Positions 4,987 to 7,017 of a DNA stretch of 64,000 bases are shown here, one piece after another; the stretch's first letter is position 1, and every line of letters begins with the position of its first letter. This DNA comes from Desulfocicer vacuolatum DSM 3385. GTDB lineage: Bacteria > Desulfobacterota > Desulfobacteria > Desulfobacterales > Desulfobacteraceae. The translations under genes and the position numbers were made by a program. The notes below the pieces were generated by a model that did no database searches, was not told where the DNA came from, and saw nothing but the letters and a program-made list of their open reading frames with translations. The stretch lies in NCBI RefSeq assembly GCF_900176365.1, contig NZ_FWXY01000017.1, forward strand, positions 60,242 through 124,241. Reading direction: 5' to 3'.

Positions 4987-7017
4987 TTATTCCCGGGGCA
5001 TTTTGTCTCCATACCCCATGGGCAGCTTCTTGAACCGACCGCCATGGATAATGGGGTCCCCTTCATACCCCAGCGCCTTAAAGTCAATGTAATCCGTGGT
5101 ATCTTTGAGATGACTCACATCCCTGCCCTTGGACATCATAAAACTGAAATCCGTTCCTTTTTGGGCAATGGCTTTAAAGTCCACGTCCCGATTGTCCTGG
5201 TGGCAGCGGTTGCAGGTTTTTTCTTCCTTAAGGCTTTCATGGCACTGCACACAGGACAACGCCATGTTTGCGGGCATCACCTCGTGTTCCAGACGCCAAT
5301 ACATCCAGGTTTCCACCCATTTAAAGGTGCCGCTGTAATCGAGATTTACGGCCTGCATGCCATCGGTGAAGGCCTTTTCCCAATCAAGATTTTTCCAATA
5401 CGCAGTCTTGTCTTCTTTATTTCTGGGAAACAGATGGGGAATTAAAAAATAATCATTTTCCGCATCAACGGCCTGGACCCCCTTCATGATCTTAAACGGC
5501 GTGATTTTGGATGAGGGATCTTTGATGGAACCCACAGGATCAGTTAAATTAATCACCGGGGCATGAATATCCACTTTCTGTCCCATGAGAACCCGCTCCA
5601 TGTAACCGTCATACCAGGCATAGGTGGGCTTGGGGGATTCCTTCCATTTAAATTCACCTTTTTTCCAATGATAGTCGGGCTGACCGTACTTGTCTTTTTT
5701 GGGTTTTCGTTTTTTGTCCCCGGCCTTGGACCAGTCCCACCAGGTTTTGGTGGGTTTGCACTTGGCATACACCGGTGAATGACAGGTGTTGCAGTCAATG
5801 GTTTTACAATGTTTATTCAAATGATGATCCAGCAGGCTGCCGCAATAGTGGGGGGTATCAGAGTGGCAGTCCCGGCAGGAGACGGCCCCTTCCGATGCCG
5901 GGACAGAAGAACTTCTTCCGGCGATTTTATGGTTCCGGGTCTTGTGACACTCGGCACAGGAGAAATCATATCCCCCCATGTGAACATCACAGTTTCTGTC
6001 AGGTGTTAACAGCTGCCGGGAAAGGTCAGCATGCTTAATGGCATCCCCGCCCCCGCCGTTAAAATGACAGGAACCGCAGCTGGCACGGCTGGAGTGGCCT
6101 ACGTTCTGGGCCACAAATTTTAAATCCACATCCTTGGCAGGCATCCCTGCGCCCGGAGGGGCTTTTTTATAGGTGCCGGTGGTGTCGTGGCACACCAGAC
6201 AGTCCATTTTAGTTTTATCTGTAAAATCAAATGATGCATCTTTCCATCCATAACCTGCATGACAACTTGTGCAACGAGCCTCGTTGCTGATGGGGCTGAT
6301 TCAGTAGTTGTTCAGAGCCGTGGTGCCCTTGCCGTGCTGGATGTCCTTTCGATGCTTCACCGTAAAAGGCGATGGCCCTTTCCAGAGCCAGTGGGCTGTG
6401 GTGAGCATGTCCTCTGCCTGGGCATCATGGCACCGCCGGCACTCTGCCGTCACCTGGAACGGATCTGCGTCATCAGGAAGCTTTACCAGTTCCTTGTGAT
6501 CCGGCACATTTTTCAAATGACACCCGGTGCAGTTCACCGGACCCTTGGCTTCTTGTTTATGACAGGCCATGCACTGCTGGTGAAAGGCAGCTTTCAGGCC
6601 CAGGCGTTGGGGGTTATCCGCTTTAAAGGCTTCCTGGTGACAGGCGGAACAGCGGGTGGTTTCTGACATGCTTTCATCTTTGGGACGATAGTGATGGCAG
6701 GCTGTGCAGTCACCGATAAGTGCCGCATGGCGTTTGTGGGCAAACCGCACCGGGCCGTAATGATCTTCCCGGGCCTTTATTATTGGACTTTCCAGATGAA
6801 AATAGGTGGTTTCAACATCTTTGATGTCAATACCCTTATCCAGCAGGCATACCCTTCTTAAGACCTTGCAGTCATCTTTGACCGCATCCACAAAGGGCAC
6901 CAGCTCCTTTGCCCGCTCCTTTGCCTTTTCCTGATCCGGGGCCTTCCACACCTCGGCACTGCAAAGGCAGGCCCCAAGCATGACAACACCGGCCCATACC
7001 ATTATTTTTCTAATCAT
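4987..7017 (-). CDS. 13-haem cytochrome, c3-like domain fused to an octahaem tetrathionate-reductase-type domain, with in-frame TGA read as selenocysteine 239
   Basis: Reading through one TGA (6301-6303) gives a single 676-residue secreted cytochrome. A signal sequence (MIRKIMVWAG, with a possible lipobox LGAC, Cys17) leads to a c3-like tetrahaem domain (CXXCH at 104, 123, 149, 163). A second part carries CXXCH at 193, 249, 273 and six later sites. NEARCTSCHAGYGWKD and CLVCHDTTGTYKK are typical of the octahaem tetrathionate reductase (Otr) family, where relatives have a Cys in NNFC; here the codon after NNY is TGA. A hairpin of 7 bp (6271-6287) with an AGGCU-type apex starts 13 nt after the TGA, the usual bacterial SECIS place. 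Reading the TGA as stop would leave a C-terminal half without start site or signal peptide and would lose haem motif 249-253. The ATG overlaps the nrfD-like stop (ATGA). The substrate is not known; tetrathionate, nitrite or hydroxylamine are options from the family. Confidence 0.85.
6271..6287 (-). promoter_or_regulatory. SECIS-like hairpin of the octahaem-type cytochrome
   Basis: On the mRNA strand GCAACGA pairs with TCGTTGC around the triloop GGC (an AGGCU apex if the closing A-U pair opens). It begins 13 nt after the TGA. A short stem with G residues in the apical loop about 20 nt after UGA is the known bacterial SECIS form bound by SelB. The hairpin lies inside the coding sequence for NEARCTSC. 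Confidence 0.7.

Follow-up and report, generated by a model that had tools for sequence, protein, structure and literature searches.

Is the TGA codon that interrupts a long cytochrome reading frame in Desulfocicer vacuolatum DSM 3385 a stop, or is it read as selenocysteine (Sec)? The gene in question lies at 4987–7017 on the minus strand of a stretch of 64,000 nucleotides (nt) of contig NZ_FWXY01000017.1 (positions 60,242 to 124,241), hereafter the window, to which coordinates refer unless another locus is named. It would encode a multihaem cytochrome of the octahaem tetrathionate reductase (OTR) family, 676 amino acids long and with 13 CXXCH motifs. From comparison of sequences, we consider it very likely that the UGA, together with a hairpin of the selenocysteine insertion sequence (SECIS) type, is decoded as Sec where the family has its likely active-site Cys.

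A TGA codon within an OTR-family cytochrome gene

The frame runs from ATG to TAA without a stop except for a single TGA at codon 239 (6301–6303, minus strand), the predicted Sec codon. Ordinary gene calling gives two open reading frames (ORFs) here, 6301–7017 and 4987–6207, with the haem motif CTSCH (residues 249–253) sitting between them. This confirms the original prediction that two apparent genes in the same frame are separated only by the TGA and the codons around a haem motif. Read through, the product has an N-terminal c3-type domain (about residues 85–168) and an OTR core (about 171–663) in which eight CXXCH are counted; in this long form the c3-type part ahead of the TGA carries a signal-like start and five CXXCH. 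The cytochrome scores 493.8 bits with the TIGR04315 profile, against a curated cut-off of 375, and has the OTR fold as judged by the Shewanella oneidensis structure 1sp3. By eye, its start (6958–7017, minus strand) contains a lipobox-like LGAC, and lipid anchoring of the protein is possible.

When aligned with the PDB sequence, the TGA falls on the Cys of the NNFC motif, residue 64 of the 1sp3 chain, exactly where the family Cys had been expected. We surveyed this codon at 131 loci (L018–L148), 125 of which yielded 126 sites covering it. With duplicates included, it is TGA at 85 sites, TGC at 25, TGT at 15 and CTC at one; removal of identical sites leaves 113 distinct ones, 72 with TGA, 40 with a Cys codon and one with Leu, counts that describe a sample and not a census or population frequencies. 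Desulfamplus magnetovallimortis (L039) is among the relatives with a TGA. In the corresponding column of a 76-row protein alignment we find Cys 71 times (counting the window Sec, entered as C), Leu four times and Thr once. The Leu locus (L146, CTC) keeps the Lys discussed below, and Leu, or in one case Thr, occupies the Sec/Cys position in five proteins (P0103, P0105, P0108, P0111 and P0117).

When the window gene is compared with four relatives, substitutions cluster at third codon positions both before and after the TGA, a pattern that suggests selection on each half as protein. The ATG of the downstream ORF corresponds to Met in 14 of the 58 Sec rows with the same hairpin type and is thus not conserved as a start, and by eye no Shine-Dalgarno-like stretch was seen before it, in agreement with the earlier remark that the downstream part alone would have no ribosome site. 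Dozens of other genomes have this TGA together with this hairpin, which rules out a sequencing error.

Matches above cut-off to tRNA-Sec (selC, 75.8 bits), selB (380.2 bits), selA (609.4 bits) and selD (362.6 bits) are all present in the source genome. Its selD (L016, G000:C63:144301-145227) has one in-frame TGA of its own, and SelD is probably itself a selenoprotein. The original prediction of Sec at the Cys position of an OTR-type cytochrome is therefore supported where it was open to failure: the TGA is no error of sequencing, the sel genes are there, and homologues without TGA carry a conserved residue at the position, Cys at 40 of the 41 distinct sites and Leu at the other.

The predicted SECIS hairpin and a proposed exchange of Sec and Cys

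The predicted bacterial SECIS hairpin, GCAACGA-GGC-TCGTTGC, lies at 6271–6287 (minus strand). It begins 14 nt past the TGA, and its stem of 7 base pairs is capped by the apical loop GGC, 20 nt past the TGA, so that the hairpin with a G-rich apex at SECIS distance described from the letters alone is indeed present. With G-U pairs allowed, this stem survives in 91 of 20,000 synonymous recodings that leave the peptide unchanged, and the pattern of TGN plus hairpin has a single match in the window, while 100 shuffles gave none. The hairpin falls within the SECIS limits taken from PMC13188914, its energy standing exactly at the limit of −7.5.

We grouped the Sec genes into long-form genes (subfamily A), short-form genes (B), a third subfamily (C) and the distant L066. 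In the A Sec genes and in subfamily C, GCAACGAGKCTCGTTGC starts 14 nt past the TGA, L144 being one letter off with its pairing kept. The B Sec genes and L066 have another hairpin, with TGCAGKTGCA as its upper part and the loop at +25 as against +21. Across 50 A genes the hairpin codons for S, N, E, R and C are free of synonymous change; at one of these positions L144 encodes Cys in place of Arg. By contrast, 115 other conserved codons have a mean normalised synonymous entropy of 0.82, with none at zero. Five hairpin codons are likewise fixed in nine C genes, against 3 of 119 other codons, and in 13 B-type genes (including L066) codons +8, +10 and +11 are fixed while +5 and +6 vary, as expected of the different register.

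A G falls within the first two loop positions of the best hairpin at 72 of 72 Sec sites, compared to 14 of 41 others. A search for the pattern TGN-N13-hairpin in 291 genomes from the same order gave 45 sites (44 with TGA, one with TGT) spread over 42 genomes, and none in the reversed control; the 30 sites that were fetched all lie within OTR-family genes. One or other of the two hairpins is found in all 71 Sec rows, partly by construction since the motifs were defined from the same rows, and in 1 of 40 Cys rows. For independent pairs, the association of hairpin with Sec has a median p of 0.03, the motifs having been defined after the Sec sites were viewed.

Relatives were gathered by scanning one genome per species for 84,980 species, giving 60 loci, and by a protein search of the 291 genomes, of which 161 contain the OTR family. 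A tree of 112 rows was built by a quick method, leaving out the short row L050 and masking the codon and the eleven following. This tree requires a minimum of 8 changes of the Sec label, 6 of them on starred branches, as opposed to 33.6 for shuffled labels. Four parts of it contain Sec, namely clades A, B and C and the row L066; the placement of L066 and L108, both long branches, is unsure. Two Cys rows, L029 (Desulfospira joergensenii) and L089, lie within the Sec part of A. The tree cannot separate gain from loss of Sec, and the likeness between the A and C hairpins may be due to descent, convergence or recombination.

The hairpin may also have left its mark on the protein. Of the 40 Cys rows, 30 have Pro at residue 72 (1sp3 numbering); none of the 71 Sec rows does, and these have Ala (55), Cys (13) or Ser (3) instead. 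A codon beginning with C cannot supply the loop G, so Pro72 would have had to go. There are 6 independent pairs on starred branches for this association; 4.6 on average point the same way and never any the opposite way (median p 0.06), which is suggestive only. At the one TGT site with a complete hairpin (L125/L163; L125:3071-3103, G262:C622), Pro is replaced by Ala, and the tree joins the row to a Sec row with a support of 91, on a branch that is not starred. Read most simply, this would be a reversion from Sec to Cys that retains a fossil SECIS.

Three OTR-family members are present in the source genome: the window Sec gene, a short Sec form and a Cys form. The short Sec form (G000:C47:180413-181648; L110:8333-9733) carries a TGA of its own at the corresponding residue, together with a B hairpin, and scores 477.7 bits with TIGR04315 when read through. 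A gene for an outer-membrane porin lies upstream of it, and its other neighbours include a DUF1638 protein and a RACo-like corrinoid-activation protein. The Cys paralogue (G000:C29) is followed by a gene whose product resembles, by eye, a b-type membrane cytochrome.

On balance we lean towards a history in which a single haem-side catalytic residue has been switched repeatedly between Cys and Sec within one family, through two unrelated SECIS hairpins lying in two registers within the codons of the catalytic haem motif. The loop G would have forced out a conserved Pro, a Cys revertant would keep its fossil hairpin, and two Sec paralogues and one Cys paralogue would share the source genome. The family would then offer a clear case of a SECIS seeming to shape the protein (Pro to Ala, Ser or Cys), and one of Sec loss with the hairpin left behind.

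Active site, operon and alternative readings

Residue 239 stands ten residues ahead of CTSCH (6259–6273, minus strand), which ranks second among the haem motifs of the OTR core and, by alignment, corresponds to that of OTR haem 2, to which a catalytic role is ascribed (PMC11024163). Downstream, all 112 rows of the core alignment have Lys in the column of Lys328 (6034–6036, minus strand). Lys328 aligns with Lys153 of 1sp3, which we take to be the number of the catalytic-haem Lys ligand in the OTR chain, and hence with the presumed sixth ligand. Sec is likely to be next to the catalytic haem.

Upstream of the cytochrome and in the same direction lie genes for an HmcB/HybA-like 4Fe-4S protein (8206–9261, minus strand; start probably at ATG 9129, start and Tat-like signal by eye) and for an NrfD/HmcC/HybB-like integral membrane subunit, probably quinone-linked (7014–8327, minus strand; ORF as listed, true start probably internal). 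A sigma-54-dependent PAS regulator is divergent (9456–10862, plus strand). We surveyed 64 long-form sites, 50 with and 14 without Sec, for these genes. The NrfD-like gene is upstream in the same direction at 43 Sec and 13 non-Sec sites, the 4Fe-4S gene at 31 and 13 and the regulator at 10 and 6, many of the fetched stretches being too short to reach the more distant genes (of the 8 sites that lack NrfD, 5 have less than 900 nt upstream). Of the 20 long-form sites with 4 kb or more of upstream DNA, 15 have a relative of the regulator in the same place, and in the Cys member L147 the NrfD domain and the cytochrome share one frame. The TGA-bearing L112 (G257:C1:322000-330000) has a shortened C-terminus, a reversed 4Fe-4S gene and no NrfD match, and its operon is possibly rearranged or decaying.

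By the HmcA, HmcB, HmcC and TmcA cut-offs the system is not an Hmc or Tmc complex: the full-length cytochrome reaches 65.7 of 400 bits for HmcA and 64.5 of 114 for TmcA, and the partner subunits 361.3 of 420 for HmcB and 268.7 of 550 for HmcC. We propose instead that the operon encodes a membrane complex linked to quinone, with a selenium-containing OTR active site at its end. A literature search for OhcABC, a name for this operon type, gave no match. Elsewhere in the window, Rfam at the gathering threshold returned one match, far from the gene, to a group II intron (RF02001; 49595–49704, minus strand; 38.4 bits with a cut-off of 32).

For the proposed system, SelB would bind the hairpin and deliver Sec-tRNA, and the protein would be exported and loaded with haem through the usual cytochrome c pathway. 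Electrons would pass between menaquinol and the catalytic haem by way of the NrfD-like and 4Fe-4S subunits and the c3-type domain. OTR of S. oneidensis reduces tetrathionate, nitrite and hydroxylamine (PMC4484225), and OTR has been called an enzyme of cryptic function (PMC11024163). In the Sec protein, the selenolate may attack the S-S bond of a polythionate, a polysulfide or another oxidised sulfur compound, and the Se-S adduct so formed would then be cleaved by electrons from the haem, as is thought for the active-site Cys of TsdA, which forms a covalent thiosulfonate adduct (PMC5146829). The same site might also reduce N-O or Se-O bonds. Cys and Sec forms, sharing an operon type, may do the same job and differ in rate or in resistance to over-oxidation.

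Several observations weigh against this picture. Part of the site sample came from a search for close relatives of the window Sec gene, and part was hand-picked from the matches listed, leaning to TGA rows. The residue is dispensable in some members (Leu in 4 and Thr in 1 of the 76 aligned proteins, and Leu in one locus), and the Lys328 column of that alignment, which was used for the model, holds Arg once beside 75 Lys. Among the matches listed, 4 of 51 genomes with one TGA are without a selA match (G062, G230, G259 and G277); three of these have selB above cut-off, and the fourth has a piece of selB at a contig end. The hairpin energy limit is reached at 69 of 72 Sec sites, with L144, L123 and L127 falling short of −7.5, and an NrfD match is absent at L107, L112 and L144 despite 2.1–3.8 kb of upstream DNA. 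Hairpin energy was rejected as a discriminator of Sec from Cys, since Cys sites have equally stable hairpins elsewhere in the stretch, and the association of TGA with selA within the order as uninformative, 270 of the 291 genomes having selA above cut-off. Measuring how far Sec lies from Lys or haem in the predicted model was also set aside, the predicted local distance difference test (pLDDT) score being below 50 at the Lys loop (residues 321–330) and the model containing no haem.

Could the TGA be a true stop or a decay mutation, leaving two separate genes or a pseudogene? Gene calling does split the gene, and protein databases contain C-terminal pieces of relatives (P0109, P0118 and P0120), but the same TGA at 72 of 113 distinct sites, the third-position-biased change on either side of it, the unconserved downstream start and a hairpin free of synonymous change strongly disfavour this, and we regard it as highly improbable. 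Reading of UGA without selenium, as another residue (a Trp code) or through a generally leaky stop, would join the frame equally well. It would account neither for Cys replacing TGA at 40 of 41 non-TGA sites nor for a hairpin of SECIS geometry kept at the level of letters beside a full sel machinery, and seems to us just as remote. A selenium switch, in which translation at low selenium ends at codon 238 to give a free-working c3-type protein and with selenium continues to the full enzyme, would suit the signal-like start, c3-type domain and five CXXCH that precede the TGA in the long form. However, Sec members of B and C have about 86–178 open codons before the TGA, too few for signal, c3-type domain and OTR start, making such a switch improbable.

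A further alternative keeps Sec and changes the direction of electron flow: the protein would run as an oxidase, passing electrons from a periplasmic sulfur or nitrogen donor to the menaquinone pool. HmcB gives the best score for the 4Fe-4S partner, and the cytochrome b subunit of Ni/Fe-hydrogenase and HmcC give the best for the membrane partner; Hmc/Tmc-type complexes are thought to pass electrons inwards, and the c3-type domain could couple to the periplasmic c3 pool. We hold this unlikely. If Sec is inserted beside the catalytic haem, as we favour, it would alter how the enzyme breaks sulfur or nitrogen bonds, and the occurrence of natural Sec, Cys and rarer Leu versions in one recurring operon type makes the role of the residue a testable question. 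Since ordinary gene calling splits the gene, the respiratory capacity of carrier genomes is easily under-read.

Comparison with known systems

The original prediction knew of no described selenoprotein in the OTR family, which is out of date, as such a claim is already in print. A table in PMC13188914 (May 2026) has an entry 'Tetrathionate reductase family octaheme c-type cytochrome, TIGR04315, WP_331457571.1', annotated in GenBank and with one Sec, and so of the same family and Sec number as the window protein. The row as it stands in that table is a single accession with no motif, whereas position, SECIS and context are described here for the window family. Literature searches found nothing further than this row on Sec in the OTR family and nothing on Cys64 together with OTR, and the mentions of octahaem and Sec in PMC5877670 and PMC2628731 do not concern OTR. 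What is added here is the exact Sec site and its place by the catalytic haem motif, the two SECIS types, the repeated exchange, the fossil and the operon.

The window protein resembles OTR of S. oneidensis (1sp3) in fold, in sequence (44% identity over 419 residues), in the eight core haem motifs, and in Lys153 and the NNFC motif. It differs in having predicted Sec for Cys64, an extra N-terminal c3-type domain and a thirteenth CXXCH near the C-terminus, and its gene in having a membrane module in the operon. The thiosulfate dehydrogenase/tetrathionate reductase TsdA has a fold unrelated to that of OTR. It is similar, by proposed analogy only, in that the substrate is bound covalently, as an adduct, by a thiol at the catalytic haem, but TsdA is dihaem and its Cys is a haem ligand (PMC5146829). 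ExtKL of Geobacter (NF040886) is also a multihaem c-type cytochrome with one predicted Sec (PMC5877670, PMC13188914), but belongs to another family model, has five haems, lies in another gene cluster and has a proposed role in selenite reduction (PMC5877670). With the Hmc and Tmc complexes of sulfate reducers the window system shares an HmcB-like 4Fe-4S subunit, an HmcC-like membrane subunit and a TmcA/HmcA-like c3-type domain, to which, unlike those complexes, it joins a catalytic OTR core.
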